DNA of 64,000 nucleotides. It comes from Ianthella basta. Its lineage: Eukaryota > Porifera > Demospongiae > Verongiida > Ianthellidae. Both the position numbers and the translations under genes were made by a program. A model generated the notes under the pieces. It ran no database searches, was not told the origin of the DNA, and saw only the letters and a list, made by a program, of their open reading frames with translations. The DNA lies in the NCBI GenBank assembly GCA_964019415.1, contig OZ025871.1:787129-851128 (forward strand), written 5' to 3'. Positions 11,449 through 63,456 of this stretch are shown piece after piece. Numbering within the stretch: position 1 is the first letter of the stretch; each line of letters opens with the position of its first letter.

Positions 11449-14400
11449 ATGGATAAAGTTCGTATGGACTCAACAACATGTTTGATACAGGCTGCTTACA
11501 TGGATGATGACCACATGGTGCATGAGCTCATCAGAGCAGGTGCTAGTGTGACTGCAATGAACCAGCAGCAGAAACAAAGAGCCCTTCACATTGCCTGCAA
11601 GGAAGGCCATTCCAGTGTTGCCAAAGCACTGATTGAGGCTGGGGCTGACATCAATGGACAAGATGAAGATGGAACAACACTTTTAATGCAGGGTGCTTAC
11701 AGGGGTGATGACCAAATGGTGCATGAGCTCATCAGAGCCGGTGCCAGTGCGACTGCAAAGAACAAGAAACTACAAACTGCCCTTCACCTAGCCATCAGCA
11801 GCAGAAGCAGGCAGGCCCAAGGGAAGGGCCATTCCAGTGTTGTCAAAGCACTGATTGAGGCTGGGGCTGACGTCAATGGACAAGATGAAGATGGAACAAC
11901 ACCTTTGATGCAGGCTGCTTGCGGGGATGATGACCAAATGGTGCATGAGCTCATCAGAGCAGGTGCTAGTGTGACTGCAATGAACAAGCAGTGGAAACAG
12001 AGAGCCCTTCATATTGCCTGCATGGAAGGTCATTCCAGTGTTATCAAAGCACTTGTTAAGGCTGGGGCTGATGTCAATGGACAAGATGAAGATGGAACAA
12101 CACTTTTGATGGAGGCTGCTTACAGGGGTGATGACCAAGTGGTGCATGAGCTCATCAGAGCAGGTGCTAGTGTGAGTGCAAAGAACAACAAACAGCAAAC
12201 TGCCCTTCACACAGCCAGCAACAGTGAAAGCATGTGGGCCCCCAGGAAGGGCTTTTCCAGTGTTGTCAATGCACTGATTGAGGCTGGGGCTAAAATCAAT
12301 GGACAAGATGAAGATGGAACAACACCTTTGATGCAGGCTGCTTACAGGGGTGATGACCAAATGGTGCATGAGCTCATCAGAGCAGGTGCTAGTGTGACTG
12401 CAAAGAACAACAATCAGCAAACTGCCCTCTTTCATCTAGCCATCAGCAGCAGAAGCTGGTGGGCCCATTCCACTGTTGTCAAAGCACTGATTGAGGCTGG
12501 GGCTGACATCAATGGACAAGATGAAGATGGAACTACACCTTTGATGCAGGCTGCTTACAAGGGGCATTACTATGCGGTGCTTGAGCTCGTCAAAGCAGGT
12601 GCTAGTGTGACTGCAATGAACCAGCAGCAGAAACAAAGAGCCCTTCGTATTGCCTGCAAGGAAGGCCATTCCAGTGTTGTCAAAGCACTCATTGAAGCTG
12701 GGGCTGACATCAATGGACAAGATGAAGATGGAACAACACCTTTGATGGAGGCTACTTGCGGGTATGATGACCAAATGGTGCATGAGCTCATCAGAGCAGG
12801 TGCTAGTGTGAGTGTAAAGAACAACAAACAGCAAACTGCCCTTCACACAGCCAGCAACAGCGAAAGCATGTGGGGCCCCAGGAAGGGCCTTTCCAGTGTT
12901 GTCAAAGCACTGATTGAGGCTGGTGCTGACATCAATGGACAAGATGAAGATGGAACAACACTTTTAATGCAGGGTGCTTACAGGGGTGATGGCCAAGTGG
13001 TGCATGAGCTCATCAGAGCAGGTGCCAGTGCGACTGCAAAGAACAAGAAACTACAAACTGCCCTTCACCTAGCCATCAGCAGCAGTAGATGGGCCTACAG
13101 GAAGGGTCGTTCCAGTGTTGTCAAAGCACTGATTGAGGCTGGGGCTGACGTCAGTGGACAAGATGAAGATGGAACAACACCTTTGATGCAGGCTGCTTGC
13201 GGGTATGATGACCAAATGGTGCATGAGCTCATCAGAGCAGGTGCTAGTGTGACTGCAATGAACAAGCAGCAGAAACAAAGAGCCCTTCATATTGCCTGCA
13301 AAGAAGGCCATTCCAGTGTTATCAAAGCACTTGTTGAGGCTGGGACTGATGTCAATGGACAAGATGAAGATGGAAGAACACTTTTGATGGAGGCTGCTTA
13401 CAGGGGTGATGACCAAATGGTGCATGAGCTCATCAGAGCAAGTGCTAGTGTGAGTGCAAAGGACAACAAACTACAAACTGCCCTTCACCTAGCCTTCAGC
13501 AGCAGTTGGTGGGCCCACCAGAAGGGCCGTTCCAGTGTTGTCAAAGCACTGATTGAGGCTGGGGCTGACATCAATGGACAAGATGAAGATGGAACAACAC
13601 CTTTGATGCAGGCTGCTTGCAGGTATGATGACCAAATGGTGCATGAGCTCATCAGAGCAGGTGCTAGTGTGAGTGCGAAGAACAACAAACAGCAAACTGC
13701 CCTTCACACAGCCAGCAACAGCGAAAGCATGTGGGCCCCCAGGAAGAGCCTTACCAGTGTTGTCAATGCACTGATTGAGGCTGGGGCTGACATCGATGGA
13801 CAAGATGAAGATGGAACAACACCTTTGATGGATGCTGCTTACAGGGGTGACGACCAAATGGCACATGAGCTCATCAGAGCAGGTGCTAGTGTGACTACGC
13901 CGAACAAGAAACTACAAACTGCCCTTCACCTAACCATCAGCAGCAGTAGATGGGCCTACAGGAAGGGTTGTTCAAGTGTTGTCAAAGCATTGATTGAGGC
14001 TGGGGCTGATATCAATGGACAAGATGAAGATGGAACAACACCTTTGATGGAGGCTGCTTGCGGGTATGATGACCAAATGGTGCATGAGCTCATCAGAGCA
14101 GGTGCTAGTGTGACTGCGAAGAACAACAAACAGCAAACTGCCCTCTTTCATCTAGCCATCAGCAGCAGAAGCGGGTGGGCCCATTCCACTGTTGTCAAAG
14201 CACTGATTGAGGCTGGGGCTGACATCAATGGACAAGATGAAGATGGAACTACACCTTTGATGCAGGCTGCTTACAAGGGGCATTACTATGTGGTGCTTGA
14301 GCTCATCAGAGCAGGTGCTAGTGTGACTGCAATGAACAAGCAGCAGAAACAAAGAGCTCTTCACATTGCCTGCAAGGAAGGCCATTCCAGTGTTGTCAAA

Positions 14401-17400
14401 GCTCTCATTGAGGCTGGGGCTGACATCAATGGACAAGATGAAGATGGAACAACACCTTTGATGGAGGCTGCTTGCTGGTATGATGACCAAATGGTGCATG
14501 AGCTCATCAGAGCAGGTGCTAGTGTGAGTGCAAAGAACAACAAACAGCAAACTGCCCTTCACACAGCCAGCAACAGCGAAAGCATGTGGGCCCCCAGGAA
14601 GGGCCTTTCCAGTGTTGTCAATGCACTGATTGAGGCTGGGGCTGACATCAATGGACAAGATGAAGATGGAACAACACTTTTGATGCAGGCTGCTTACAGG
14701 GGTGATGACCAAATGGTGCATGAGCTCATCAGAGCCGGTGCCAGTGCGACTGCAAAGAACAAGAAACTACAAACTGCCCTTCACCTAGCCATCAGCAGCA
14801 CAAACAGGCGGGCCCAGGGGAAGGGCCATTCCAGTATTGTCAAAGCACTGATTGAGGCTGGGGCTGACGTCAATGGACAAGATGAAGATGGAACAACACC
14901 TTTGATGCAGGCTGCTTGCGGGTATGATGACCAAATGGTGCATGAGCTCATCAGAGCAGGTGCTAGTGTGACTGCAATGAGCAAACAGCAGAAACAAAGA
15001 GCCCTTCATATTGCCTGCAAGGAAGGTCATTCCAGTGTTATCAAAGCACTTGTTGAGGCTGGGGCTGATGTCAATGGGCAAGATGAAGATGGAAGAACAC
15101 TTTTGATGGAGGCTGCTTACAGGGGTGATGACCAAATGGTGCATGAGCTCATCAGAGCAGGTGCTAGTGTGAGTGCAAAGGACAACAAACTACAAACTGC
15201 CTTTCACCTAGCCTTCAGCAGCAGTTGGTGGGCCCACCAGAAGGGCCGTTCCAGTGTTGTCAAAGCACTGATTGAGGCTGGGGCTGACATCAATGGACAA
15301 GATAAAGATGGAACAACACCTTTGATGAAGGCTGCTTACAAGGTTAATGACCAAATGGTGCATGAGCTCATCAGAGCAGGTGCTAGTGTGAGTGCAAAGA
15401 ACAGCAAACAGCAAACTGCCCTTCACACAGCCAGCAACAGCGAAAGCATGTGGGCCCCCAGGAAGAGCCTTTTCAGTGTTGTCAATGCACTGATTGAGGC
15501 TGGGGCTGACATCAATGGACAAGATGAAGATGGTACAACACCTTTGATGGATGCTGCTTACAGGGGTGACGACCAAATGGCACATGAGCTCATCAGAGCA
15601 GGTGCTAGTGTGACTGTGAAGAACAACAAACAGCAAACTGCCCTCTTTCATCTAGCCATCAGCAGCAGAAGCTGGTGGGCCCATTCCACTGTTGTCAAAG
15701 CACTGATTGAGGCTGGGGCTGACATCAATGGACAAGATGAAGATGGAACTACACCTTTGATGCAGGCTGCTTACAAGGGGCAGTACTATGCGGTGCTTGA
15801 GCTCATCAAAGCAGGTGCTAGTGTGACTGCAATGAACCGGCAGCAGAAACAAAGAGCTCTTCATATTGCCTGCAAGGAAGGCCATTTCAGTGTTGTCAAA
15901 GCACTCATTGAAGCTGGGGCTGACATCAATGGACAAGATGAAGATGGAACAACACCTTTGATGGAGGCTGCTTACAGGGGTGATGGCCAAGTGGTGCATG
16001 AGCTCATCAGAGCAGGTGCCAGTGCGACTGCAAAGAACAAGAAACTACAAACTGCCCTTCACCTAGCCATCAGCAGCAGTAGATGGGCCTACAGGAAGGG
16101 TCGTTCCAGTATTGTCAAAGCACTGATTGAGGCTGGGGCTGACGTCAGTGGACAAGATGAAGATGGAACAACACCTTTGATGCAGGCTGCTTGCGGGTAT
16201 GATGACCAAATGGTGCATGAGCTCATCAGAGCAGGTGCCAGTGCGGCTGCAAAGAACAAGAAACTACAAACTGCCCTTCACCTAGCCATCAACAGCAGAA
16301 GCAGGTGGGCCCAGGAGAAGGGCCATTCCAGTATTGTCAAAGCACTGATTAAAGCTGGGGCTGACGTCAATGGACAAGATGAAGATGGAACAACACCTTT
16401 GATGCAGGCTGCTTGCGGGGATGATGACCAAATGGTGCTTGAGCTCATCAGAGCAGGTGCTAGTGTGACTGCAATGAGCAAGCAGCAGAAACAAAGAGCC
16501 CTTCGTATTGCCTGCAAGGAAGGTCATTCCAGTGTTATCAAAGCACTTGTTAAGGCTGGGGCTGATGTCAATGAACAAGATGAAGATGGAACAACACTTT
16601 TCATGGTGGCTGCTTACAAGGGTTATTACCAAGTGATGCATGAGCTCATCAGAGCAGGTGCTAGTGTGAGTGCAAAGAACAAGGAAGTACAAGCTGCCCT
16701 TAACCTAGCCATCTGCTGCGTATACGTCCACAGGAACGTTTGTTCCAGTATTGTCAATGCACTGATTGAGTTAGGGGTTGGCATCAATGGACAAGATGAA
16801 GATGGAACAACACCTTTGATGCAGGCTGCTTACAAGGGGCATTGCTATGCGGTGCTTGAGCTCATCAGAGTAGGTGCTAGTGTGACTGCAATGAACCAGC
16901 AGCAGAAACAAGAAGTCCTTCATATTGCCTGCAAGGAAGGCCATCCCAGTGTTATCAAAGCACTGATTGAGGCTGGGACTGATGTTGATGGACAAGATGA
17001 AGATGGAACAACACCTTTGATGCAGGCTGCTTACAAGGGGCATTACTATGCGGTGCTTGAGCTCATCAGAGCAGGTGCTAGTGTGACTGCAATGAACCAG
17101 CAGCAGAAACAAAGAGCCCTTCGCATTGCCTGCAAGGAAGGCCATTCCAGTGTTGTCAAAGCACTGATTGAGGCTGGGGCTGATGTCAATGGACAAAATG
17201 AAGATGGAACAACACCTTTGTTGGAGGCTGCTTGCGGGTATGATGACCAAATGGTGCATGAGCTCATCAGAGCAGGTGCTAGTGTGACTGCAATGAACAA
17301 GCAGCAGAAACAAAGAGCCCTTCATATTGCCTGCAAGGAAGGCCATTCCAGTGTTATCAAAGCACTTGTTGAGGCTGGGGCTGATGTCAATGGACAAGAT

Positions 17401-19604
17401 GAAGATGGAAGATCACTTTTGATGAAGGCTGCTGGCAAGGGGCATTACTATGTGGTGCATGAGCTCATCGGAGCAGGTGCTAGTGTGACTTCAATGAACA
17501 AGCAGCAGAAACAAAGAGCTCTTCATACTGCCTGCAAGGAAGGCCATTCCAGTGTTATGAAAACACTCATTGAGGCTGGGGCTGATGTCAATGGACAAGA
17601 TGAAGATGGAACAACACCTTTGATGAATGCAGCTATGGAGGGCCATGAACAGATGGTACTTAAGCTCATAAGAGCAGGTGCTAGTATTAATGCCATCAGT
17701 ACACAGTTTTATTGTTATTCCTGTCTTGCAGCTAAAGGTTCAACAGCACTACATTTTGCTGCTCAACGGGACAAGATTAAGTGTGGAGTCCTCCTTGTGG
17801 AGGCAGGAGCAGATTTGACAGCAAGGAACAATGACTCCAAATCTCCCCTGGATCATGCATCAGTTGACTTCAAACATCATATTCAACAGGCGCAGTCTGT
17901 TTCTGCCAAACGCATTGTTGCAGTAATTGGCAATGCTGAACACGGCAAGAGTACACTGATAGCAGCTCTGAAAGCTGAGGGCAACAGCCTGTGGACGAGG
18001 TTCATCAACAGGTTTGCAAAAGTGCAGAACGTCAGCCAGCGAACAACTGGAATCGAAGCAGTCCAGTTTTCCAGTCAGAGATATGGGGAGACACTGTTCT
18101 ATGACTTTGCTGGTCAGTCTGATTACCACGGCCCTCATCAGTCCTTCCTGGAGGCCATGCTAAGCAAGCCAGGATTGACTGTGACTCTGTTAGTTCTTGT
18201 GAAGGCAACTGATGAAGCAGACATCATCACACAGCAAATCAATTGTTGGTTGCAACCTCTAGCGCTTGTTTCAACTCCATCCACTCCACAAGTGATACTG
18301 GTTGGCAGTTTCCTGGACCAAGTAAATTCCAGAGAAGAAGCAACTGAGAAGCTGGTGCTATGCACTCAGACAGTGCAAAAGGAGTTGCCATACAACATCC
18401 AGGGTACCTGTCTCCTCGACTGCCGCTATCCTGAATCTGAGGGTATCAATCAGATTTGCAGCTTCTTCGTAGAGAACCAACCTCTTCTATTGAACTCCAA
18501 CATCTTTTCATACAACCTTCACTGGGTTCTAGTACAAGTGAGGCGAGCATTCTCCATTCCAGCCATCACACTCCACACTTTCCAGTCATGGGTTCTGGAA
18601 AGTGTTGAACTGCTCCCGTTACATCTACCCCCACCTGAGGAGGTGTGTCGTGACCTAACAGCAGTTGGTCATGCCCTTTTTCTCCCCAACAGGCAAGACC
18701 CCTACCAAAGTTGGCTCATTCTGGACCTCCAAGCTATTCTCCACGACGTGTATGGCACTCTGTTCTCCAGCTCCAAGGGTAAGGTCAACAAGTTTGGTCT
18801 CCTACATTGCAGCCAACTGGCTGAACTGTTTCCCAAATTGGATCAAGCAATGATCCAAGAGGTGCTGATCAGCCTTGAGTTCTGCACCCAAGTTGATCCT
18901 TTGCTCATAAAAAAAGAGCTGTTGAAGCTGACAACAAATGATGATGTGGAAGGCTGGCTGTACTTCCCTGCCCTGGTGTCAGCCCAGCCACTTGAGGTCT
19001 TCCCAGGTGATCTAGATCCACAGCACCTCCAATGGGTATGCTGGCAGCTGAGGACAATGGAGAAGCACTTCATCTCTGCTCATCTCCTTCAAACCATCAT
19101 CCTCCGTCTTGCTGCCAATCATGTGTTTACCCACGAGTTATCTCCCAGTGTGAGAGAGCACTGCTGCAGTGTTGGGGTGAATGGCCTTTCATGGAGGTCC
19201 ACCAAAGGTGTGGACATAGCGGTCCAGATAAGTGACAGCAGTGTGGTCCAGGTTGTTGGACGCAGCAAGGCAGGACCAGAGGAGCTTTACCAATACACCT
19301 CGACTGTTGTCCAAACTGTCATCCAGACAACTACCCAGCAGACTCCGAAGCTGGAGGCCACATCCTACATTGTCCACCCGTACGAACCTGAAACATGGGA
19401 TGACCCCAAAGTCCCTCCCCCTGACTCCCTGTATCCTGTTTCAAGTATTGTTTCCTGCATCAATGATCAACACAACTATGTCCTATCCCTGCCAAAACAG
19501 GATGGCCGTCTTCCTCACCAGATGAGTCTTCCAGAGTTGTTTGGAGGATGGTCTCCTCCTTTGTCAGTTGTGGAGGACATGGACTTTAAGAGGGAACCAC
19601 AGAG

Positions 19605-19643
<39 letters not shown>

Positions 19644-20955
19644 CGCACACTTGTCTCCCTGCATGTCTGCATGGCCAAGGGTGCTGTGGTGTTATTTATA
19701 TGGTGTATACAATGTGTATACATCATATAAAGTAACATCATGGCATTACACATGTGTAGACTGATGTTGACCAAACTAGACACATGTTCACTGTGTTAGG
19801 TAGCCTTAGAGTTGAAATCTGACTTTATGGTCCTCCTTTGTACCTGCAGCTCCACTGCCCTCAGTACCGTCATCCTCCAGCTCCCAAAATGGAGCTACCA
19901 CTGCTGACAAGGGACCCTCCACAGAGATGGAGGCACTGACTGCAACACAGCAAGGTACGCTTCATGCAGTGTCACTACATATGAGTACACCACAGTGTAT
20001 CGAGTGTGGGAGGTGTGTCCCCATTCATTGGTGGTACTGTTAAATGGTGTGACTAACATGGACGTGCTCAGTGTACAGATGGCTCTGGCTAATTTGATAC
20101 ACATGCCCCACCCCCCACCCTGCCCCCATTCCATTACTAACTACTCCTTCTCTCATTACTGCAGTTGAGGTGTCCCCAGAAGGTGATCTGTCTCTATCAC
20201 AAGAAGGCTCCTCTCCAGAGACAGTAAAAGATGAGGAATGTGTGTGTGGTGTTGTCAGTGAAGCCACCACTGCTATTTCACAAAACCAGACAGTGCACTC
20301 TGTGGGTAAGTCTCTCCATCCTCAGTGTATCTAGGTCTCTGAAAATTTGCTCATTCCACCTCACAGTGTACTAAATGCAACATGTGATGGATTATACTTT
20401 GAGTGTGCAAGGACATTGTGTGATTTAACAACATTTGCTGCCATCACTATAGAAGCCCTCCCCATGTACTTGAAGTGCCTGTACCTCTTGAGTAAATCAG
20501 ATGTTTACTCTAACGTCCATGTTTACACAGCTGCCATGTGTTATAACAGTAGGTGACATTGCCTGATGACATATTTGTGTGTAGTCCATGGAGGTTCATT
20601 CTCTGTATCTCACCTCATGTACACATTGAATACCTATTGAATGTGTGCCATGTGTCTTCCCTTTCCTTGTAGCTCAACAAGTTCTTGACCACTTTTGGGA
20701 CCAGTTCATTGACAAAATGGACGCAGAGACAGTTATCATGGAACTTCACCACAAAGATATCATTGATAGAGGTGATCTGAGAACGATCTCAAGGAACCCT
20801 AACCCAAGACAACAGAATGAGTACCTTCACTTGTGCTTGAAGGACAAGTGCACTGAGGGAGCCTTCAAGACTGTATGTGACATAATCAGCTCAGTGCAGG
20901 GCAACCCGAAGATGAAAGCACTGGGTGAAGCTATGAAGAGGAGACTAGAGACAGG

Positions 20956-21035: not shown

Positions 21036-22231
21036 GTGTTTATGTACGTATGTATATGCATGTGTGCATATGTTGGTAAACTACCATGATTGGTGGGGAC
21101 TATGCAAGGACCTTGGTCGTGCCAACCCAATCTCTCCCTGTAGGAGACACCACCAGTCCCACTGCCCTTTGCTCAGAGTCACACATGACACACAACACAC
21201 TGTCACAGGTGAGTGTGGACATTACTGTTGTACCAGTGAAGCCATAGCAGTGAAGGCAGCATGTACCACCAACCATCCTGTAATACTGCCTCTCCTGGTT
21301 GCTATAGTTACTGGTGGGAAAGTCCCTTTGGTTGTAGGACCACCTCTAATGGTACAGACTTCTGTGTTGTTGCAAAAGAAAGTTGAAATCCGTATGCCAT
21401 GTGATGTACGTAGTTTGGCCACTCTATGCTCAGTGATTGGTCCATGTGACTGTCACATGGACCAATGGACATCCTTAATTGAAAGTCCCTGCACTTAGTA
21501 GTCTTGTAGCCAGTCCACGTCTAGTCACCATTTTGCAAATTGTCTGTAAGGTGGTTTGGCAAGCCTTCTACTGTCTGCACAATCCTCTCCTTCAGACCTG
21601 CCCTCAGTACTGTCATCCTCCAGCTCCCCAATGTGGAGCAACCGCTGCTGACAAAGGAGCCTCCACAGAGATGGAGGCACTAACTGCAACACAGCAAGGT
21701 ATGCTCCATGCAGTGTCACTACACACGAGTGCACCTCACAGTGTACCGAGTGTGGGAGGTGTGTCTGTGAATGTGTGTACATTTACATTGTCTAGTGTGT
21801 TTGAGTGGATTGACACAAGTTTACACTAATTCACTTCACACTGAACATAGCTACAACAGCACACAAGTGTGTGATTCCAATAACACCTACACTCTGGTCT
21901 CAATCCCTCCACAGATGGACCCGCCCCCTTTGACATTGACTCCACCCCCACTTTACAAGCCATCAGGAAGTTCGTTGTCTGTGAAGTTGCTACCCACTGG
22001 AGCCTAATAGCCCTCAGCCTTGGCTTTGAATCCTCTGCTGTTCCCACAGTGGCTGAAACAGATCGTTGTGAAGATGCGTGCACAGCCATTTTTGATCAAT
22101 GGTTGTCATGGGAACCAGGCACAGGGGAGAAGAGCAGAACATGGTGGACTATCCTGTCCTCAATGGAGGGTGCCGGACACAAGACCTTCGCACAGCGACT
22201 CAAGAGAGAGTTGTTCCACCTAGTCACCTAG
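11449..22231 (+). CDS. gene A: giant ankyrin-Roc-COR-CARD-Death protein, 7 exons
   Basis: Proposed exons: 11449-19606, 19850-19954, 20165-20305, 20673-20954, 21144-21208, 21596-21698, 21915-22231 (9171 bases, 3056 residues). The ATG at 11449 matches the starts of genes B and C; an upstream TTG is ignored. Residues 1-2140 hold about 60 ankyrin repeats in paired units (TALH-type alternating with DEDGTTPLMQAA). A Roc-type GTPase follows: P-loop GNAEHGKST from Gly2161, DFAGQ from Asp2219, G4-like GSFLD. A COR-like region (about 2390-2560) comes next. Exons 2 and 6 are homologous Ser/Thr-rich linkers, exon 4 is CARD-like, exon 7 a Death domain. Exon 5 lacks one base found in genes B and C, and exon 6 has one extra base; together they keep the frame. 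DAPK1 has the same order but also a kinase. Likely a cytosolic GTP-controlled adaptor; function is inferred from domains only. The alternative is several separate genes, made unlikely by matching intron phases. Confidence 0.85.
12424..17660 (+). repeat. near-identical ankyrin-coding tandem array with higher-order repeats (gene A)
   Basis: Ankyrin pairs of about 200-215 bases recur with only scattered differences. Above this lies a higher-order period: the variant unit beginning ccctctttcatctagccatc occurs at about 12430, 14150 and 15650, each followed by the same ordered set of variants (KGHYY or KGQYY, then SESMW-type, then KKLQTALHLA-type). Spacings are about 1.7 and 1.5 kb, that is 7-8 pairs. 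This points to recent unequal crossing-over or gene conversion inside the exon. Copy number may be wrong in short-read assemblies and may vary between individuals. Confidence 0.85.
17890..18480 (+). other. Roc-type GTPase domain of gene A
   Basis: The segment starts at RIVAVIGNAEHGKST (G1, P-loop), continues with RTTGIEAVQ (candidate switch I Thr), then YDFAGQSDYHGPHQSF (G3, DxxGQ, with Gln as in Roc and Rab proteins), then VTLLVLVKATDEAD and VILVGSFLDQV in the G4 position. G4 lacks the classical NKxD Asn-Lys, so base specificity may be relaxed, as in some Roc domains. The same motifs occur in gene B (GNSEHGKST) and gene C (GNAEHGKST), so nucleotide binding is likely retained. Confidence 0.8.
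18510..19606 (+). other. COR-like and C-terminal region of gene A exon 1
   Basis: After the GTPase comes HWVLVQVRRAF, then DLTAVGHALFLPN, SWLILDLQAILHDVYGTLF, GLLHCSQLAELFPKL, EVLISLEFCTQVD and WLYFPALVSAQP. This order (Gly-His-Leu-Phe, Trp-Leu-Ile-Leu-Asp, winged-helix-like segment, Phe-Pro-Ala-Leu) is the pattern of COR modules, which follow Roc and mediate dimerisation. A further 150 residues (NGLSWRSTKGVDIAVQI, then LPHQMSLPELFGGWSPPLS) are strongly conserved among the three genes without a domain I can name. Confidence 0.7.
19607..19646. repeat. (GT)n/(GC)n microsatellite at the intron 1 donor of gene A
   Basis: The alternating GT tract begins at the first intron base after CAGAGAG and runs into GCGCGC. 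Gene B has a shorter version at 37967-37998; gene C has only GTGTGC. The donor is therefore embedded in a repeat that offers several GT dinucleotides. Confidence 0.85.
20673..20954 (+). CDS. gene A exon 4: CARD-like domain
   Basis: An acceptor (ccttgtag) and a donor (acag then gttagtgtgt) bound 94 codons, phase 1 at both ends. The sequence shows the CARD helix pattern: DHFWDQFIDKM, ETVIMELHHKDIID, DLRTISRNPNPRQQNEYLH, KCTEGAFKTVCDIIS, PKMKALGEAMKRRLE. CARDs bind one another in apoptosis and inflammasome-type assemblies. Gene B (39202-39483) and gene C (61957-62238) have nearly identical exons, the best conserved part of the family. Another death-fold type (DD, DED) is possible, but the RxxN...L...L.KC...F pattern favours CARD. 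Confidence 0.75.
20955..21032. repeat. (TG)n microsatellite after exon 4 of gene A
   Basis: GTTAG is followed by about 70 bases of pure TG. The same intron has about 115 bases of TG in gene B (39484-39604) and about 25 in gene C (62239-62265). Confidence 0.9.
21596..21698 (+). CDS. gene A exon 6: linker exon, duplicate of exon 2
   Basis: The exon is homologous to exon 2 (19850-19954): shared ccctcagta.tgtcatcctccagctcc and GAT.ADKG.STEMEALTATQQ. It starts after ccttcag. An extra base near 21633 means the first 12 codons read TCPQYCHPPAPQ instead of LPSVLSSSSSP; this fits because exon 5 ends in phase 0 here and not phase 1. Gene B has lost this exon. Gene C has lost the equivalent AG but offers another acceptor downstream. 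Confidence 0.65.
21915..22231 (+). CDS. gene A exon 7: terminal Death domain
   Basis: The exon starts after ccctccacag and reads GPAPFDIDSTPTLQAIRKFV, then THWSLIALSLGFESS, CEDACTAIFDQWLSWEPG, RTWWTILSSMEGAGHKTFAQ and RLKRELFHL before TAG. The W-x-LIA-x-LGF, FDQWL...W and TW..IL..ME..GHK..A pattern is that of a Death domain, with helices 1-6 identifiable. Being last, it matches the C-terminal Death domain of DAPK and many adaptors. The stop lies in a CACCTAGT repeat; a second TAG follows one repeat later. Confidence 0.8.
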
Positions 22232-24281: not shown

Positions 24282-24315
24282 GACACACACACACACACGC
24301 ACGCAAGCACGCACG

Positions 24316-34246: not shown

Positions 34247-40276
<6,030 letters not shown>

Positions 40277-50919: not shown

Positions 50920-51014
50920 TAGATATTTTATGTTGTGACACATGAATGTGAGTGTGTGCCGTAGTGTGAATGTTGCCATGACAATGACTTGCCATGGCAA
51001 CATTTGTGGTGACA

Positions 51015-51105
51015 GTCAAATCGCAAACATTAAACCTTGCAAACGTTCCCACTATACGGTATCGTATAGTGGGAACTTTTGCAAGGTTTAATGTTTGTGA
51101 TTTGA
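51015..51105. repeat. near-perfect palindrome
   Basis: gtcaaatcgcaaacattaaa and tttaatgtttgtgatttgac are the ends; the centre is ctatacggtatcgtatag. It would form a 45-bp hairpin, probably another small MITE. Confidence 0.7.
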
Positions 51106-52320: not shown

Positions 52321-52432
52321 GTTTATATACAATCATTGAGTCATTCATCAATAATAGAGAAATTCTCTTGCCATCTCTTTCTGGGTCTTCCCCTCGGTCT
52401 CTTTCCCTTTGCTTCCTCTTCATACACTATCT

Positions 52433-52870: not shown

Positions 52871-52899
52871 CAGTCCTGCTAACCATCTTTAGAAAAAAA

Positions 52900-54249
52900 T
52901 TAAGCAAAAGCCAAGGCCACAGGAAGACAGTGAAGACACAGTAAAGGTGAAGCAGAGGGAGAATTAGCGACATCTTATACAGCAAATGCACAGTGATGTG
53001 CAGCTCTTAAGCAGACTCAGTTTAGTCTCACAGGGCGCTGGAAGCTATTTGGCATTGATCTGGCAGATGTAATAATAGCAAAGTGTGTGTAAGTGTACAA
53101 CCTGCCCTTCTAGGTGGGTCTGGGGGTATGCCCCCCCCCCCCCCCCCCCCCCCCCCCCAGGAGATATTAGGCTATCGGAGAGCACTTTTGTGCAATTTTG
53201 AGTTGTATACAAGGTAACACAGTAGCTGCCTCTAGCTCCCATTTAGTGATTTAGTGCTCACACTCACAAGTATAGTCAGTTGAATTAGCCTAGCAACTAT
53301 GTATCCAATATGTACTGGAAACGAGTAGCCTTTCAATGGGTGAAACTTCACAGGAACCTGACCAGCAGGCTCGCTAGCTACTGCATAGGTGTCAACCTAT
53401 GTACATAGCAACTTAGTAAAGTGGGACAAACTGCTGAAAAAGAGGGACATTGGCAGAAGAGGCAGGACAAAAACGAGCTTTTCAGACTATGGACTGGGCT
53501 CGAACTTAGTACATCCCATAATACCGAATCTTGAACCTTGTTGCTTTAGGTTCGAGGGTACCAACACTAACCCTGAGCGTTTAGAACAGCTATCCATATT
53601 GAGTATCTAAGTAGGTCGCGCAATAAAAATGGCTGCTGATCGCTGCTAGGGTTAGGTGGGTTTGTGAAGCCAGGACTGAGTATCTGCCTCTTGCAGACTG
53701 GTTCCGGCATCCCTGAAACCATAATTTGGGAGGGTAATATGTCTAAGCAAAATAGCAATCCGGCTAGGTGAGACTAGACTTGGTGGTGAATGATTATCAA
53801 TTCCAGCATTGATTCCTGCACTTACAAGAGTTAGCTTGAGGCTGAGAAAGTAATACTAGTGTAACCTGCAAATTATGCCATAGCTACCATGCAGTGCTTT
53901 AGTTGGTAGTACATTGTTCCGATGACTTCCTCTTAAAAGTTTCACAATTCTTCGTGCTTCCACATCCCAACAGTGCTTCACTTCAGATCAACGCCCCACT
54001 GCTTGGAGTACATCGCTATACTGCTGGTTATCTAGCATGGCATGCTTCCCAGAACCATTCCAAGAAATCGTGTTGGCCCAGGTATAATGGCCGGTATGAA
54101 CACAATATAATGGTAGCGTGACTGATTATCTTGCATCTTACAAGGTAGGGAAGAAGGCTTCTTAGGTTCTGCATGATGTTGGTTTTCACTGTAGTGTGAC
54201 AGCCAGCTAAACAAATTGTGACCTCATAATATACTTGGTCATAGCCTCG
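52900..54249. other. upstream flank of gene C with poly-C tract; no gene seen
   Basis: 52921-53035 and 53740-53870 repeat 45600-45720 and 45785-45910. A run of about 30 C lies at 53129-53158. No coding signal. Confidence 0.45.
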
Positions 54250-54342
54250 TTCCCAGGCCGTCTGCAATAATTAGCGTGGGCGGGAAGGACAGCCTGGTGT
54301 ACACTGTTTGTGCATGCGCAAACTTTCCCCCAAAAGTAGGGA

Positions 54343-54645
54343 ATGGAATCTGATCGTATATTCTCTGTACAACTCAACTACAGCAAATGGCTACCATGCA
54401 CAGGGACGGACGAAACTGGTGCTCTATCTTACGCTTTTTCTCGTGTAGGACTTCCTGGTATCACAATTAAGCAAGAACAGTTGACTGCTATTCGTTACCT
54501 GTATGCTCAGAAGGACGTATTTTTGTGGTTACCGACTAGTTTTGGGAAGTCCGTCTGCTATGAGGTGTTGCCGATCCTTTTCGACTTCGCTGGAAGTAAG
54601 TCTGGCAGCGTATTGTCTCCCCTTGTATCCTTGATGGTGCACTGA
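54343..54645 (+). pseudogene. RecQ-like helicase N-terminal fragment, copy 1
   Basis: GITIKQEQLTAIRYLYAQKD, then PTSFGKSVCYEVLPILFDF (motif I, GKS, as in RecQ-type DEAD helicases), then SPLVSLMVH in the motif Ia position (usual SPLxSLMxDQ), then a stop. The start is frameshifted relative to copy 2. A GTAAGT follows FDFAGs in both copies and may be an ancestral donor. Confidence 0.6.
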
Positions 54646-54777
54646 GTGTGAAGCCTCCGCAAACGTTTCTGACTGTAGGGTGAAGCTCCTACCCCAGTAG
54701 AGTCCTTGGGGAGCTTGCTTCCTTGCACCTGTAACTTTCGCAAGCTTTCCTGAGCCACCTCACAGAACCTCTGGTGC

Positions 54778-55089
54778 TTACATTTGATGGACTGTTCTGA
54801 GTGATGCCAGGCAATTCCTGCACACGTACGATGGCAAACCATCGTCATTCTCGATTGCCACTAACAGCAGCCGACTAAGGCACCCAGGAAGGTCTTTCTT
54901 TAGCCCCTTTCGGCTGAACAACAAGGAAACATCCGACGAGCAAACTCTGCATTTGTAGAGCCTTACGAAGGCCGCACACACTGCCGTCCATTGATTAGTC
55001 AACTTTATACATGCGCAAAATTTCCCCCAAAAGTAGGGGAACGGAAACTGACACGTCCGTATATTATCCTTAAAATTCAACTGCGACAA
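54778..55089 (-). pseudogene. ZAD-like four-cysteine domain frame, copy 1
   Basis: CRVCSSDVSLLFSRKGLKK, DLPGCLSRLLLV, then GLPSYVCRNCLASLRTV. Two CxxC pairs about 45 residues apart with an LP..I/L..L core are the pattern of ZAD zinc-binding dimerisation domains. The frame is intact here but carries no DNA-binding fingers. Confidence 0.5.
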
Positions 55090-55313
55090 TGACTACTGCA
55101 CAGTTTACGGAGGACAGGCTATTCACTGATGCTCTCTCATATGCTCTTTCTTGCGTTGGACTTTCTAGTATTACGCTCAAGCAAGAACAACTGACTGCTA
55201 TTTGTTATCTCTATCAACGGAAGGGCGTATTTCTGTAGCTAACGACTGGTTTCAAAAAGTCGGTCTGCTACGAGGTGTTGCCGTTTCTTTTCGACTTCAC
55301 TGGAAGTAAGTCT
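55089..55313 (+). pseudogene. RecQ-like helicase fragment, copy 2
   Basis: MTTAQFTEDRLFTDALSYAL, then SSITLKQEQLTAICYLYQ, a TAG after VFL, then TTGFKKSVCYEVLPFLFDF. The stop and the loss of Gly before KS in motif I (FKKS) mean it cannot act. Confidence 0.55.
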
Positions 55314-55324
55314 GGCAGCATTGT

Positions 55325-55638
55325 TCTTCGATGGGCTGAGCTGTTGCTAGGCAATTCTTGCACACATACTACGGCAAACCATCGCCATCCTCGATTGGCA
55401 CCAAAAGTAGCCGACTGAGGCGCCCGGGAAGGTCTTCTGTCAGCCTATTTTGGCTGAACAATGAGGATGATCGATTTAGAGACACGTCTGACGAGCAAAT
55501 TCTGCATGTGCAAAGCCTTACGAAGGCTGCGCTCATTGCAGTCCATTGAACCTTATCCGCCGTCGACACGCCATTTCGATACGGAAGTATGACGTCACAG
55601 AACAGTGGCTCCCAGACCCTTATTCTTTTCCCCCGCAA
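55325..55638 (-). pseudogene. ZAD-like four-cysteine domain frame, copy 2
   Basis: CRICSSDVSLNRSSSLFSQN, DLPGRLSRLLLVP, then DGDGLP and a stop before YVCKNC. Same module as copy 1, broken by a nonsense codon between the two Cys pairs. Confidence 0.5.
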
Positions 55639-55660
55639 TTAACGCTAAGGGCCTGGGAAT

Positions 55661-55834
55661 GTAACTAATTTGGTCATTACTTTATCAACACCATCTGGTT
55701 CATGTAATCAGTGGGATTGTGTCTTCTATAATTATGTAGGTCACACCTTCAAACTAATAAGCATCAGAGAGATCTCTTTGGATTGTTTGTATAGAAGGCA
55801 ACTTGCATTTGTGGAGTGAGGCAGCTCATTTGAG
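55661..55834 (+). promoter_or_regulatory. 5' proximal region of gene C with candidate acceptor
   Basis: gattgtgtcttct..ta.gtaggtcacac is shared with 11340-11365 of gene A; gtttgtatag (55786-55795) is the equivalent of the TAG acceptors before A and B. ATG follows at 55835. Confidence 0.4.
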
Positions 55835-58800
55835 ATGGATACCAAATATGGAGTAACGGAACTCATTAGAGCAGCTACTAGTGTGACTGCAAAGGACAAA
55901 AAGCAACGAACTGCTCTTCACATAGCCAGCATTTGGGGTCGTTCCGATGTTGTCAAAGCATTCATTGAGGCTGGGTCTGATGTCAATGGACAAGATGAAG
56001 ATGGAACAACACCTTTGATGGAGGCAGCTACCAGGGGTTATGACCAAGTGGTGCATGAGCTCATCAGAGCAGGTGCTAGTGTGACTGCAAAGAATAACAG
56101 ACGACAATCTGCCCTTCAGTTAGCCAGGAGAAAAGGCTATTTTAGTATTGTGATAGCACTCATTGAGGCTGGGGATGTTGACGATCAACAAGATAAAGAT
56201 GGTACAACACCTTTGATGGAGGCAGCTTACAAGGGATATGACCTAGCAGCGCATAAGCTCATCAGAGCAGGTGCTAATGTGACTGCAATGGACAAGAAAC
56301 AACAGACTGCCCTTCACAAAGCCAGCCTGGCCGGCACTTCCAGTGTTGTCACAGAGCTCATTGAGGCTGGGGCTGACGTCAATGGTCAAGATGAAGATGG
56401 GACAACACCTTTGATGGAGGCAGCTACCAGGGGTCATGACAAAGTGGTGCATGAGCTCATCAGAGCAGGTGCCATTGTGTGTGCAAAGAATGACAGACAA
56501 CAATCTGCCCTTCAATTAGCCAGGAGAAATGGCTGTTTTAGTATTGCCATGGTACTCATTGAGGCTGGGGATGTTGACAATGAACAAGATGAGGATGGTG
56601 CAACACTTTTGATGGAGGCAGCTTACAAGGGATATGACCTAGCGGCGCATAAGCTCATCAGAGCAGGTGCTAATGTGACTGCGAAAAACAACAAACAACA
56701 GACTGCCCTTCACAAAGCCAGCCTGGCCGGCACTTCCAGTGTTGTCAAAGCACTCATTGAGGCTGGGGCTGACGTCAATGGACAAGATGAAGATGGGACA
56801 ACACCTCTATTGATGGCAGCTGATAAGGGTCATGACCAAGTTGTCCGTGAGCTCATTGGAGCAGGTGCTAGTGTGACTGCAAAGGACAGTAAACAACAAT
56901 CTGCTCTTCACATAGCCAGTAGCAGCTGGAGACAGCATTCTAGTGTTGTCACAACACTCATTGAGGGTGGGGCTGATGTCAATGGACTAGATGAAGATGG
57001 AGCAACACCTTTAATGATGGCAGCTGATAAAGGTCATGACCAAGTGGTCCGTGAGCTCATTGGAGCAGGTGCTAGTGTGACTGCAAAGGACAACAAACAG
57101 CAATCTGCTCTTCACATAGCCAGTAGCAGCTGGAGACAGCATTCTAGTGTTGTCACAATGCTCATTGAGGCTGGGGCTGATTTCAGTGGACAAGATAAAG
57201 ATGGAACAACACCTTTGATGGAGGCAGCTACCAGGAGATATGACCAAGTGGTGCATAAGCTCATCAAAACAGGTGCTAGTGTGACTGCAAAGGACAACAA
57301 ACAACAGACTGCCCTTCACAAAGCCATCCTCGCGAGCACTTCCAGTGTTGCCAAAGCACTAATTGAGGTTGGGGCTGACGTCAATGGTCAAGACGAAAAT
57401 GGGACAACTCCTTTAATGATGGCAGCTGATAAAGGTCATGACCAAGTGGTCCGTGAACTCATTGGAGCAGGTGCTAGTGTGACTACAAAGGACAACAAAC
57501 AACAGACTGCCTTTCACATAGCCAGAAGGTTGGGCCATTTCAGTGTTGTTAAAGCACTCATTGGGGCTGGGGCTGATATCAATGAACAAGATGAAAATGG
57601 AACAACTCTTCTAATGGAGACAGTTTACAAGGGTCATGATCAAGTGGTGCATGAGCTCATCAGAGCAGGTGCTAGTGTGACTGTAAAGGACAACAGACAA
57701 CAGACTGCCCTTCACATAGCCATCTTCAGAAACCATTTCAGTATTGTGAAAGCACTCATTGAGGGTGGGGCTGACATCAATGGTCAAGACGAAAATGAGA
57801 CAACTCCTTTAATGATGGCAGCTGATAAAGGTCATGACCAAGTGGTCCGTGAACTCATTGTAGCAGGTGCTAATGTGACTGCAAAGGACAACAAACAACA
57901 GACTGCCTTTCACATAGCCAGAAGGTTGGGCCATTCCAGTGTTGTCAAAGCACTCATTGAGGCTGGGGCTGATATCAATGAGCAAGATGAAGATGGAACA
58001 ACACTTTTAATGGAGACAGTTTACAAGGGTCATGATCAAGTGGTTCATGAGCTCATCAGAGCAGGTGCTAGTGTAACTGTAAAGGACAACAAACAACAGA
58101 CTGCCTTTCACATAGCCAGAAGGTTGGGCCATTCCAGTGTTGTCAAAGCACTCATTGGGGCTGGGGCTGATATCAATGAACAAGATGAAGATGGAACAAC
58201 ACTTTTAATGGAGACAGTTTACAAGGGTCATGATCAAGTGGTGCATGAGCTCATCAGAGCAGGTGCTAGTGTGACTGTAAAGGACAACAAACAACAATCT
58301 GCTCTTCACATAGCCAGTAGCAGCTGGAGACAGCTTTCCAGTGTTGTCAAAACACTCGTTGAGGCTGGGGCTGACGTCAATGGACAAGATGAAGATGGGA
58401 CAACACCTTTAATGATGGCAGCTGATAAGGGTCATGACCAAGTGGTCCATGAGCTCATTGGAGCAGGTGCTAGTGTGACTGCGAAGGACGACAAGCAACG
58501 AACTGCTCTTCACATAGCCAGCATTTGGGGTCGTTCTGATGTTGTCAAAGCATTCATTGAGGCTGGGTCTGGTGTCAATGGACAAGATGAAGATGGAACA
58601 ACACCTTTGATGGAGGCAGCTACCAGGGGTTATGACCAAGTGGTACATGAGCTCATCAGAGCAGGTGCTAGTGTGACTGCACTGAACAGGCAGCAAAAAC
58701 AGAGAGCCCTTCGCTTTGCTAGTACGGAAGAGCACTCAAGTGTTGTAAACACACTTATTGAGGCTGGGGCTGTTGTCAATGAACAAGACAGAGTTGGAAG

Positions 58801-61800
58801 AACTCTACTGATGTTGGCAAGTGAAAGCGGTCATAAGCAAGTGGTGCATGAGCTCATTAGAGCAGGTGCTTGTGTGACTGCATTGAACAGTCAGCAAAAA
58901 CAAAGAGCCCTTCTCTATGCCATCTGGGAAGGCCACTCCAGTGTTGTCAAAACACTCATTGAGGCTGGAGTTGATATCAGTGAGCATGATGAAGATGGGA
59001 TAACCATTTTGATGGATGCAGCTCTGAAGGGACAAGACCAAGAGGTACATAAGCTCATCAGAGCAGGTGCTAATGTGAATGCTGTCAGTAGATGCTATTC
59101 CTGGTTAGTTGCTGCTGGTTCAACAGCACTACATTTTGCTGCTGATACTAACAGTATTAATTGTGGGGTCCTCCTCGTGGAGGCAGGAGCAGATATGACA
59201 GCAAGGAATAAAGACGCTAGATCTCCCTTGGATCTTGCATCAGGTGACTTCCGACAGTCCATCCAACGGGCCCAACATTTCTCAACCAGACGCATTGTTG
59301 CAGTAATTGGCAATGCTGAACACGGCAAGAGTACACTGATAGCAGCTCTAAAGGCTGAAGGTAAAACCCGATTAAGGAGGTTCACCAACAGGTTTGCAAA
59401 GGTGCAGGACATCAGACATCGAACAACTGGAATTGAAGCAGTCCAGTACTCCAGTAAGAAGTATGGAGAGACACTGTTCTATGACTTTGCTGGTCAGTCT
59501 GATTACCATGGCCCTCATCAATCCTTCCTGGAGGCCATACTAAGCAAGCCAGGAGCGTCTGTGACCCTGTTACTTCTTGTGAAGGCAACTGATGAAGCAG
59601 ACACCATCACACAGCAAATCACTTGTTGGCTGCAACCTCTAGCTCTAGCATCAGCCCAATGTACTCCACAAGTGATCCTTGTTGGCAGTTTCCTGGACCA
59701 AGTAAAGTCCAGAGAGGAAGCAACCAGCAAGCTGTTGCAATGCACCCAGTTAGTGCAACAAAAATGTCCTTTCAACATCCAGGGCCCCTGTCTCCTTGAC
59801 AGCCGCAAGCCTGATTCTGAGGGCATCAATCAGATTTGCACCTTTTTTGTGGAGTCTCAACCCCCCCTATTAAACTCCGACACTTTCTCATACAACCTTC
59901 ACTGGGTCCTAGTGCAAATAAGGAAAGCATTCTCCGTTCCAGCCATCACACTCCACACCTTCCAGTCATGGCTGCTGGAAAATGATCAACTGCTCCCATT
60001 TCATCTACCCCCACCTGAGGAGGCGTGTCGTGACCTAACAGCAGTTGGCCACACCCTCTTTCTCCCCAACAAACGAGACCCCTCCAAGAGTTGGCTTATT
60101 TTGGACCTCCAAGCTATTCTTTACAATGTGTATGGCACTCTGTTGTCCAGCTCCCAGTGTAGGGTCAATAAGTTTGGTCTCCTCCATTGCAGCCAACTGG
60201 CTAAGCTGTTTCCCAAATTGGATCAAGCAATGATCCAAGAGGTCCTGATTAGCCTTGAGTTCTGCATCCAGGTCGACCCTTTGCTCATGAGAGAAGAACT
60301 GTTGAAGCTGACTGCAGAAGACAAGGTGGAAGGCTGGCTGTATTTCCCTGCCCTGGTGTCAGTCCAACCACCTGAGGTCTTCCCAGATGATCCAGACCCT
60401 CAGCGCCTCCAATGGGTGTGCTGGCAGCTGAAGACAGTTGAGAAGCACTTCATCTCTGCTCATCTCTTGCAGTCCGTCATCCTCCGTCTTGCAGCTAATC
60501 ATGTGTTCACCCACAAGTTGTCTCCCAGTGTGAGAGAGCACTGCTGCAGCGTTTGGTTGAACGGCCTTTCCTGGAGGTCCACCAAAGCTGTGGACATAGC
60601 AGTCCAGATAAATGACAGCAGTGTGGTCCAGGTTGTTGGACACAGCAATGCAGGACCTGAGAAACTACATCGATACATGTCGACTGTTATCCAAACTGTC
60701 ATCAAGACAATTACTCAGCAGTCACCGAAGTTGGAGGCCACATCCTACATCATCCACCCATACACACCTGCTATGTGGGAGAATAACAAAGCCCTTCCCC
60801 CTGACTTTCTCTATCCTGTTTCAAGTATTGTCTGTTCGATCAAGGGTGGAGATGACCACATTCTATCCCTGCCAAGACAGGATGGCCGTCTTCCTCACCA
60901 GATGAGCCTTCCAGAGTTGTTTGGAGGATGGTCTCCTCCTTTGTCAGTCGTGGAAGACATGCACTTCCAGAAGGATCCGCAGAGAGGTGTGCATGCTTCT
61001 TATTCATGCATTTTTGATGGGCCAATTTTTTGTACAGAATATCCCTGCGCATGCATAATGGCTACCCATTCAAATAGTGCATGTGTATGGTGTTGTGTTG
61101 GAGTAGCCTGTAGATTGGATGCTGGGTTCCTCCTCCTTTATATCTGCAGCTCCACTCTCTTCAGACCTGCCCTCAGTACCGTCATCCTCCAGCTCCCAAG
61201 GTGGAGCTACCACTGCTGACAAGGGACCCTCCCCAGAGATAGAAGCACTGACTACAACACAGCAAGGTATGCTCCATGCAGTGTACTACACACAAGTACA
61301 CCTCATTGTACCCAGTGTGGGAGGTGTATTTCACCTCACAGTGTACTAAATGCAACTTTTGATTGATACACATGAGTGTGCAAGGATACTGTGTGATTTA
61401 ACAATGTTTGTGTTGAGTCTAATGAAAGTCACGATTCGGAAGAAATGTTGGAAAGAAAGGGAAAATTGGCATCAGCTGGCAGCCGAACCCAGGACAACTT
61501 ACGCCCTAGCGCGAGGTTTCAGCAGCCCAAGCCAACCAACCAGGCCGGAACAATTCACCCTTTCCCTCCTTATAGGCTAGTTCCGAACGATGGAATGGTT
61601 TGACTAACCTTTGCAGGTGTGCCACTAACTGCTGCCACTTAGAACCTGCGTACAACAAGTCAGTACAGAACGATGACAAGGTTACAACCGACTCATTCAT
61701 CTTACGTAAAATTAGCAGTGTTACTGTCATCACTAGAGAAGCCTTCCCCATGAATGTGCTTGAAGTGCCTGTACCTCTTGATTAAATCAAATGATTACTC

Positions 61801-63456
61801 TGACATGATCACACAGTTGCCATGTGTTATAACAGTAGGTGGCATTGCCTTATGATAAATTTGTGTGCAGTCCATACATTCATTCTCTGTGTCTCACCTC
61901 ATGCACACATTGAATACCTATTGAATGTGTGCCATGCGTCTTCCCTTTCCTTGTAGCTCAACAAGTTCTTGACCACTTTCGGGACCAGTTCATTGCCGAA
62001 ATGGATACAGAGACAGTTATCATGGAACTTCACCACAAGGATATCATTGATAGAGGTGATCTGAGGACAATCTCAAGAAACCCTAACCCAAGACAACAGA
62101 ATGAGTACTTTCACTTGTGCTTGAAGGACAAGTGCACTGAGGGAGCCTTCAAGACTGTATGTGATGTAATCAGCTCAGTGCAGGGCAACCCGAAGATGAA
62201 AGCACTGGGTGAAGCAATGAAGAGGAGTTTGGAGACAGGTTAGTGTGTGTGTGTGTGTGTGTGTGTTTGGTGTTTATGTACGTATGTATTTGCATGTGTG
62301 CATATGTTGGTAAACAACCATAATTGGTGTGGACTATGCAAGGACCTTGGCCATGCCAACCCAATCTCTCCCTGTAGGAGACACCACCAGTCCCACTGCC
62401 CTTTGCTCGGAGTCACACATGAACAAACAACACACTGTCACAGGTGAGTGTGGACATTACTGTTGTACCGGTGAAGCCATATGGCAGTGAAGGCAGCATG
62501 TACCACCAACCATCCTGTAATACTGCCTCTCCTGGGTGCTATAGTTACTGGAGGGAGAGTCCCTTTGGTTGTAGGGCCACCTCTAATGGTACAGACTTCT
62601 GTGTTGTTGCGAAAGAAAGTTGAAATCTGTATGCCATGTGATGTAGTTCAGCCACTCTGTGCTCAGTGATTGGTCCATGTGACTGTCACATGACCAATAG
62701 ACATCATTAATTGACAGTCCCTGCACTTAGTAGTTATGTGCCCAGTCCACGTCTGGTCACCATTTTGCAAATTGTCCGTAAGGTGGTTTGGCAAGCCTTC
62801 TACTGTCTGCATAATCCTCTCCTTCAAACCTGCCCTCAGGACCGTCATCATCCAGCTCCAAAAGTGGAGCTACCGCTGCTGACAAGGGAGCCTCCACAGA
62901 GATGGAGGCACTGCCTACAACACAGCAAGGTATGCTCCATGCAGTGTCACTACACACGACTGCACCTCACAGTGTACCGAGTGTGGGAGGTGTGTCTGTC
63001 CATGTGTGTACATTTACATGGTTTAGTGTGTTTGAGTGGATTGACACAAGTTTACACTAATTCGCTTCACACTGAACATAGCTACAACAGCATACAAGTG
63101 TGTGATTCCAATGACACCTACACTCTGGTCTCAATCCCTCCACAGATGGACCCGCCCCCTTTGACATTGACTCCACCCCCACCTTTCAAGCCATCAGGAA
63201 GTTCGTTGTCTGTGAAGTTGCTACCGACTGGACCCTAATAGCCCTCTGCCTTGGATTTGAGCAACCTGCTATCATGAAGGCCAAATCTCAACAATCCATA
63301 CATTCATGCACAGCCATCTTTGACCAATGGTTGTCATGGGAACCAGGCACAGGGGAGAAGGACAGAACATGGCGCACTATCTTGTCCGCAGTGGAGGGTG
63401 CCGGACACAAGACCATCACACAGCAGCTCAAGAAAGAGCTGTTCTACCTCCAGTGA
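55835..63456 (+). CDS. gene C: ankyrin-Roc-COR-CARD-Death protein, intact
   Basis: Proposed exons: 55835-60986, 61150-61266, 61957-62238, 62378-62443, 62840-62929, 63146-63456 (6018 bases, 2005 residues). About 35 ankyrin repeats fill residues 1-1110, more diverged than in gene A (TRGYDQ, DKGHDQ and ETVYKGHDQ variants). The P-loop GNAEHGKST starts at Gly1159, then YDFAGQSDYHG, GSFLDQV and the COR-like region (GHTLFLPN, SWLILDLQAILYNVYG, WLYFPALVS). The exon equivalent to exon 3 of A and B is absent: about 370 bases are missing near 61335, with no frame effect. At exon 6 the usual AG has mutated (ccttcaa), but an AG 14 bases later keeps phase 1. No tail unit follows, so the protein plainly ends at the Death domain. 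Same inferred role as gene A. Confidence 0.85.
61430..61735 (-). mobile_element. possible tRNA-related SINE in intron of gene C
   Basis: This 300-base stretch has no match in the same intron of genes A and B. On the minus strand gggttcggctgcc resembles a B box and the preceding ggcttgggctgctg is a poor A box. The ends were not resolved. Confidence 0.3.
61957..62238 (+). CDS. gene C exon 4: CARD-like domain
   Basis: 94 codons, phase 1 to 1. Changes from gene A are conservative (FIAEMDTETV for FIDKMDAETV; KRSLE for KRRLE). Followed by a short (TG)n in the intron. Confidence 0.75.
63146..63456 (+). CDS. gene C exon 7: terminal Death domain
   Basis: TDWTLIALCLGFEQP, CTAIFDQWLSWEPG, RTWRTILSAVEGAGHKTITQ, QLKKELFYLQ and stop. 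Two codons shorter than in A and B. The loop between helices 2 and 3 is replaced (IMKAKSQQSIHS for VPTVAETDRCEDA), the most variable part of the exon. Confidence 0.8.

Follow-up and report, generated by a model that had tools for sequence, protein, structure and literature searches.

Three kinase-less ROCO genes combining ankyrin repeats and Roc-COR with CARD and Death exons in the sponge Ianthella basta

The 64,000-nucleotide stretch of the Ianthella basta genome analyzed here (C4:787129–851128, the window) carries three + strand genes in a head-to-tail array, and each is predicted to encode a large, presumably cytoplasmic ROCO protein in which ankyrin repeats, a Roc GTPase and a COR region are followed by a CARD and a C-terminal Death domain (Table 1). 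The first exon, of 8.2, 3.7 and 5.2 kb in genes 1, 2 and 3, respectively, encodes the ankyrins, then the GTPase and then ~370 residues; downstream of it come a linker exon of 35–39 residues, a CARD exon of 94 residues, and a last, Death exon of ~103–105 residues with the stop codon. All junctions that we infer for the three genes are GT-AG and phase 1, so that internal exons can come, go or be skipped with the frame unshifted. The joined reading of gene 1 is open throughout its 2952 residues, and that of gene 3 through 1953 residues, or 1983 with an optional second linker, such that one open frame spans four exons in each of these two genes. A second linker-like exon in gene 1 would bring a stop, and is thus probably skipped. 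We note that in the introns whose donors lie at 19607, 20960, 37967, 39490 and 62245, a GT microsatellite starts right at the donor or within a few bases of it.

An earlier note on this DNA had described three long genes in a row. The head-to-tail arrangement holds, but gene 2 is not intact, as there is a frameshift inside its ankyrins at ~34.75–34.82 kb. The two overlapping frames that result are also found in a near-identical copy 122 kb upstream, and a copy at C4:1060 kb, 97.9% identical to gene 2, has open ankyrins and a frameshift of its own in Roc. The regions 25.5–44.9 and 54.9–64 kb of the window are repeated ~122 kb upstream, at C4:690–710 and 720–730 kb (L069–L071), with 99.93% identity in three compared stretches of 2.8–10 kb and 99.1% in a fourth (6.6 kb), and with ~0.65 kb present only in the upstream stretch; either the segment was duplicated very recently or the repeat is an artefact of the assembly. 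An orphan ankyrin relic lies at 47393–47587, between genes 2 and 3 (Pfam Ank_2 E 7e-9), and is perhaps the “dead head” of the earlier note.

Pfam profiles were scanned against the three exon-1 frames (that of gene 2 only from 34753 on) and ten exon pieces, and the calls on ankyrins, Roc, COR, CARD and Death that had been made by eye are now backed by profiles and folds. For the ankyrins, Ank_2 matches all three exon-1 frames with E from 0 to 7e-79, in 56, 10 and 30 Ank stretches (gene 2 counted from 34753 only), and no match to leucine-rich repeats (LRR) was found in the exon-1 frames scanned. Positions 10 and 13–17 are the usual ligand-facing positions of an ankyrin unit. In the commoner unit type of gene 1, variation is highest at these same positions and lower at 19, 31 and 33; in gene 3 it is more diffuse, and a positive-selection test on the ankyrins had a mixed outcome. 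The Roc-COR copies on C4 lie within open frames of 554–3346 aa and those on C16 and C2 within frames of 598–873 aa, and the C4 cluster is by far the more variable in the length of its ankyrin arrays. Two homologues, P0005 and P0006, hold two tandem ANK-Roc-COR modules within one open frame.

The reading of a DxxGQ-type Roc GTPase is supported by MMR_HSR1, which is above its cut-off in all three genes (25.9–41.8 bits), with Pfam Roc remaining sub-threshold in all three (17.3–23.4 vs 27 bits). Across 58 aligned sequences (A4: 55 of the 120 listed Roc-COR homologues and three from the window), GxxxxGKST, DFAGQ and GSFLD show little or no variation and switch I reads (T/A)GIE, and with these nucleotide motifs kept the Roc GTPase is apparently competent. 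In the case of the COR-like region, Pfam COR-A gave no match in the window or on C4 below 11 Mb, with 24 matches elsewhere in the genome, and a Roc-COR profile found nothing in the PDB, for which reason the structure was predicted. The resulting moderate-confidence model of gene 2 matches the Roc-COR of LRRK2 and LRRK1, and aligns over LRRK2 1328–1791, which, from the limits of COR, we take to be Roc plus most of COR. With a Roc domain that carries its motifs and, as modeled, a COR directly after it, the predicted proteins are members of the ROCO family. A separate cluster of Roc-COR genes at C20 3.93–4.36 Mb (open frames of ~1170–1360 aa) passes both the Pfam Roc and the COR-A cut-offs.

The CARD exon ahead of the C-terminal Death domain, also claimed previously, is borne out by profiles, relatives and a structure model, and the order is repeated at other loci (see below). 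The predicted structure of the gene 3 CARD exon is a six-helix death fold with helix 1 split (predicted local distance difference test, pLDDT, 92.5), and CARD sequence relatives point the same way. Single-sequence PDB searches with the CARD and with the Death domain returned nothing useful, and paralogue profiles were therefore used for both. The CARD alignments comprised 18 of 30 CARD loci with the three window CARDs (A1), 22 other CARDs with two from the window (A5), and 19 of 22 CARD homologues with the three window CARDs (A6), and the Death alignment comprised 20 of 30 Death loci with the three window Deaths (A2). Pfam CARD matches 11 of the 21 members of A1, as does DUF4420; the weak matches of DUF4420, Beta-lactamase and Abp2 to single exons were below cut-off and were set aside. 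No overlap was seen by eye between the Pfam CARD matches and the window CARD family in the genome, and the family is divergent. The last exon is assigned as a Death domain through its sequence relatives: Pfam Death matches 12 of 23 members of A2 (best E 0.0013); P0146, a protein from another assembly with 62% identity across 74% of the Death query, carries a precomputed Death assignment; and a locus at C8:776.8 kb links the family to Pfam, with E 3e-16 to the window and E 2.8e-8, over the cut-off, to Pfam Death. The Death profile against the PDB counts against this assignment, as no match was significant and CRADD (0.16) came behind a primase (0.086).

Among the three window genes, the ratio of nonsynonymous to synonymous substitution rates (Ka/Ks) is 0.25–0.33 for Roc-COR, 0.19–0.38 for the CARD and 0.52–0.60 for the Death domain, with medians over C4 paralogue pairs of 0.46 (CARD) and 0.45 (Death). 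Thirty loci around the best CARD matches were compared within 1.5-kb flanks (24 on C4 and three each on C16 and C2; the window genes account for three of them, and mirror copies of other loci for five). A Roc-COR end precedes the CARD in 27, the linker is present in 28, and a Death domain follows in 26. Together with this repetition of the exon order elsewhere, the ratios show that the arrangement seen in the window is more than chance. Were the exons instead separate neighboring genes, such that no ANK-Roc-COR-CARD-Death protein exists, the short linker exons and the stop in the second linker of gene 1 would be accommodated, but the order is repeated at 26–28 of the 30 loci and on five contigs, a single open frame runs over four exons in genes 1 and 3, and the CARD and Death frames of these two genes have, by eye, no ATG ahead of the conserved part; we consider such an arrangement very unlikely.

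The window holds only a small part of the family. Searching the genome (209 Mb, 96 contigs) with the gene 3 Roc-COR gave at least 76 copies (76 of 283 candidates scored), or at least 71 without mirror copies, all at least 71% identical, with 31 on C16, 27 on C4, 14 on C2 and two each on C11 and C23. Among the matches listed (the best 150 each for CARD and Death, such that absent partners may fall outside them), 44 of the 76 copies have a CARD within 4 kb and a Death domain within 7 kb, 10 have a Death domain with no CARD match, five a CARD with no Death match, and 17 neither. Both partners are present in 40 of 71 when the five mirror copies are left out, and in 37 of 68 when the window genes are also left out, compared to a mean of 5.0 and a maximum of 13 when the CARD and Death places were slid along the contigs (500 trials). 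These counts were first obtained with 74 of the 150 Death matches, and a repeat with all CARD and Death matches on the five contigs gave the same values. From the CARD side, a Death domain lies within 4 kb of 60 of the best 150 CARDs (slid Death places: mean 6.9, maximum 15; 200 trials). In the other assembly, Roc-COR proteins and CARDs fall on contigs of equal size (1,579,253 bases for P0002, P0003 and P0122; 161,695 bases for P0001, P0004, P0007 and P0124), as do Roc-COR and Death proteins (414,223 bases for P0087 and P0143; 456,345 bases for P0099 and P0144), which suggests that Roc-COR is linked to CARD and to Death there too. The copy set also bears on whether the array is a decaying duplicate consisting for the most part of pseudogenes. 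The frameshifts in gene 2 and in Roc of the C4:1060 kb copy, and the ankyrin relic at 47.4 kb, are what such decay would leave, but 73 of the 76 scored Roc-COR copies are stop-free within the match (frameshifts not counted) and Ka/Ks is well below 1, making this highly improbable.

The closest ROCO group to compare is that of DAPK1, in which ankyrins precede Roc-COR, and the ANK-Roc-COR-Death order of the window genes, with a C-terminal Death domain and no LRR, equals that of DAPK1. In the excerpt of PMC6337361 cited here, DAPK1 represents a ROCO group that has a Death domain and in which the kinase precedes Roc-COR. As the earlier note had stated, no protein kinase is seen: none was found in the exon-1 frames, nor at E ≤ 0.1 on the + strand of 2001–11451, 24702–34244 and 46000–55821, with 1–2000, 41.5–46 kb and the minus strand unscanned. 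The kinase expected before the ankyrins is thus missing from the stretches scanned, and identity as DAPK1 was rejected. The window genes further differ from DAPK1 in the CARD ahead of the Death domain, the ~61 ankyrin units of gene 1, and the multicopy tandem family. The label “DAPK-like” fits the domain order, but the defining kinase is missing from the family, and “kinase-less ROCO” is the safer name. It could nevertheless be argued that these genes are a DAPK1 lineage that lost the kinase and gained a CARD, acting as a general regulator of cell death or autophagy and forming no receptor family, a view to which the shared order and the 10 of 76 copies with a Death domain and no CARD match, among the matches listed, lend support. 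However, at least 76 scored copies (at least 71 without mirrors; 283 candidates) with widely variable ankyrin arrays would be unusual for a housekeeping regulator, and the absence of a kinase from the stretches scanned and a CARD family common to NACHT loci further render this unlikely.

The earlier note had likened the genes to the logic of NLR or apoptosome sensors. They have the death-fold effector module (CARD plus Death) of an NLR, but neither the exon-1 frames nor the ten exon pieces gave a NACHT/NB-ARC match, and the frames scanned gave no LRR match. With NLRs (CARD-NACHT-LRR) and APAF-1 they share a repeat sensor, a nucleotide switch and a death-fold output, but their switch is a Roc-COR GTPase where those have a NACHT/NB-ARC ATPase, their repeats are ankyrins where those have LRR or WD40, and their death-fold modules are C-terminal. 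The closer link lies in the CARD itself. A related-subgroup CARD as genome query gave 40 members at ≥65% identity among the matches listed, 30 of them on C17; the subgroup members that also appear among the matches listed for the window CARD are 45–49% identical to it (E about 1e-20 to 1e-22). NACHT (102 of 469 candidates scored) lies 1.4–4.0 kb downstream on the same strand in 10 of these 40 (slides: mean 0.79, maximum 4; 1000 trials). Of the other 110 CARDs listed with this query, two lie upstream of NACHT (control mean 0.15, maximum 2), and of the best 150 CARDs nearest the window’s own only three do (control mean 0.32, maximum 3; 500 trials). Two NACHT loci were inspected by eye; in each, the CARD exon shares its borders and phase with that of the ROCO genes, and the downstream NACHT scores 89.6 and 85.7 bits, well over cut-off. 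The NACHT exon apparently starts in a different phase from the CARD exon at both, so a further exon must intervene if CARD and NACHT form one gene. By sequence, the CARDs adjoining NACHT, such as the one at C17:1111575, and those of the window form one in-genome family, and the simplest reading is that the CARD exon is common to ROCO and NLR-type genes by exchange or descent. ROCO and NLR-type sensors may therefore feed a common CARD-dependent output, and with 54 matches to caspase-type peptidase sequences in the genome an executor is available. The likeness to NLRs gains support from this CARD family; the role as an immune sensor we infer.

Roc-COR proteins undergo nucleotide-dependent dimerization, and CARD and Death domains assemble like with like (described in part in PMC6337361). 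We consider it reasonably probable that the window genes encode receptor-like ROCO sensors with ankyrin recognition, a Roc-COR switch and a CARD/Death output. The ankyrin arm would bind a foreign, damaged-self or non-self protein, which would shift the GTP/GDP-dependent dimer state of Roc-COR; this shift would gather CARDs and Death domains and so seed death-fold assemblies, to which caspases or adaptors would be recruited. Tandem duplication, growth of ankyrin arrays and exon gain or loss would diversify the gene set. The same switch could instead serve allorecognition between conspecific tissues rather than antimicrobial defense, which a large tandem family with death-fold domains would also fit, and suicidal allo-incompatibility in sponges is mentioned in the excerpt of PMC8195603; we regard this as quite unlikely. 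Returning to the receptor-like sensor, it is possible, although we put it forward only tentatively, that some early-branching animals possess, in addition to NLRs, a second large system of intracellular receptors, in which the Roc-COR dimer replaces the NACHT ATPase wheel, expandable ankyrins recognize, CARD and Death give the output, and one phase-1 CARD exon family is shared with NLRs, so that both classes can seed common death-fold assemblies. If so, death-fold signaling in early animals was tied to a GTPase switch (ROCO) as well as an ATPase switch (NLR), with both drawing their CARDs from a single exon family; LRRK2/DAPK1-type ROCO proteins would gain an ancestral host-defense setting; and co-assembly of ROCO and NLR-type CARDs, and its control by GTP state, could be tested directly.

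Several known systems, described here from excerpts of the papers cited, resemble parts of this arrangement. Trichoplax, likewise an early-branching animal, has at least 17 genes for ROCO proteins with CARD and death domains, but with TPR, LRR and AAA companions, and the excerpted text does not place ankyrins, CARD and Death together in a single protein (PMC4104024); because of this report, the novelty is smaller than the earlier note suggested. The brown-algal LRR-ROCO genes, candidate immune receptors, likewise form an expanded ROCO family whose repeats vary and whose exons keep to one phase, but their LRR exons are phase 2 and death-fold domains are not described in the excerpt, whereas the window genes have ankyrins in one giant exon and inferred phase 1 junctions (PMC11378527). 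AP-GTPases have been assigned to immune conflict systems, and those of prokaryotes share Roc/AP-GTPase plus COR, a repeat sensor that evolves fast and a C-terminal module that varies, with bacterial effector domains where the window genes have CARD and Death (PMC8195603). In the sponge Amphimedon there are 357 Death-like/TRADD-N proteins, of which many carry ankyrins, an expansion that differs in being centered on TRADD-N, with Roc-COR not mentioned for it in that excerpt (PMC8195603). In sea anemones there are genes that join Roc/COR to TIR, and one of these has death and kinase domains as well; in Aplysia ROCO domains occur in TIR proteins and a MyD88-like protein (PMC5094078, PMC9334734). 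The ANK-Roc-COR-CARD-Death combination, its scale, and the CARD exon family common to NACHT loci were not found in the literature searched, a set of partial texts including few subscription papers, and appear to be new.

Table 1. Exons and domains of the three ROCO genes, in window coordinates
Feature	Position	Strand	Basis and remarks
Gene 1 exon 1: ~61 ankyrin units, then Roc-COR	11452..19606	+	2782 aa open frame; Pfam Ank/MMR_HSR1; donor GAG/GT, phase 1; units counted by pattern
Gene 1 Roc-COR	17884..19605	+	alignment A3: 86% identity to gene 2, 79% to gene 3
Gene 1 linker exon, Ser/Thr-rich, phase 1-1	19850..19954	+	AG/GT borders, frame kept
Gene 1 CARD exon, phase 1-1	20673..20954	+	family evidence; borders
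Gene 1 second linker-like exon	21608..21698	+	inclusion would bring stop
Gene 1 Death exon with stop codon	21915..22231	+	family evidence; frame and stop
Gene 2 exon 1: ankyrins and Roc-COR, broken as assembled	34247..37966	+	two overlapping frames, 34244–34816 and 34753–38082
Gene 2 Roc-COR, stretch used for structure prediction	36223..37965	+	fold match
Gene 2 linker exon	38202..38318	+	borders, frame
Gene 2 CARD exon	39202..39483	+	CARD family evidence; frame
Gene 2 Death exon with stop codon	39960..40276	+	Pfam Death E 0.034–0.041, sub-threshold; stop
Gene 3 exon 1: ~32 ankyrin units, then Roc-COR	55835..60986	+	1799 aa open frame; Pfam; unit count
Gene 3 Roc-COR, query of genome-wide search	59267..60985	+	alignment
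Gene 3 linker exon	61150..61266	+	frame
Gene 3 CARD exon, sequence used for structure prediction	61957..62238	+	Pfam CARD 12.2 bits, below cut-off; model pLDDT 92.5
Gene 3 optional second linker exon, in frame	62840..62929	+	frame
Gene 3 Death exon with stop codon	63146..63456	+	Pfam Death E 0.08, sub-threshold; stop

Further open pieces follow the Death exons of gene 1 (23649–24701) and gene 2 (41036–41532), with a sub-threshold NOL4-like helical match downstream of gene 1 (E 0.0012) and a tail common to both genes; these pieces may represent an additional gene or alternative 3′ ends. Elsewhere in the window, a Myb/SANT-like DNA-binding domain lies upstream of gene 1 (7888–8079, + strand; 35.6 bits, over cut-off), an open frame on the minus strand at 52433–52888 resembles, by eye only, the end of a reverse transcriptase of the long interspersed nuclear element (LINE) type, and a sub-threshold DEAD-box helicase match is found at 54475–54672 on the + strand (21.1 bits, E 2.7e-4).

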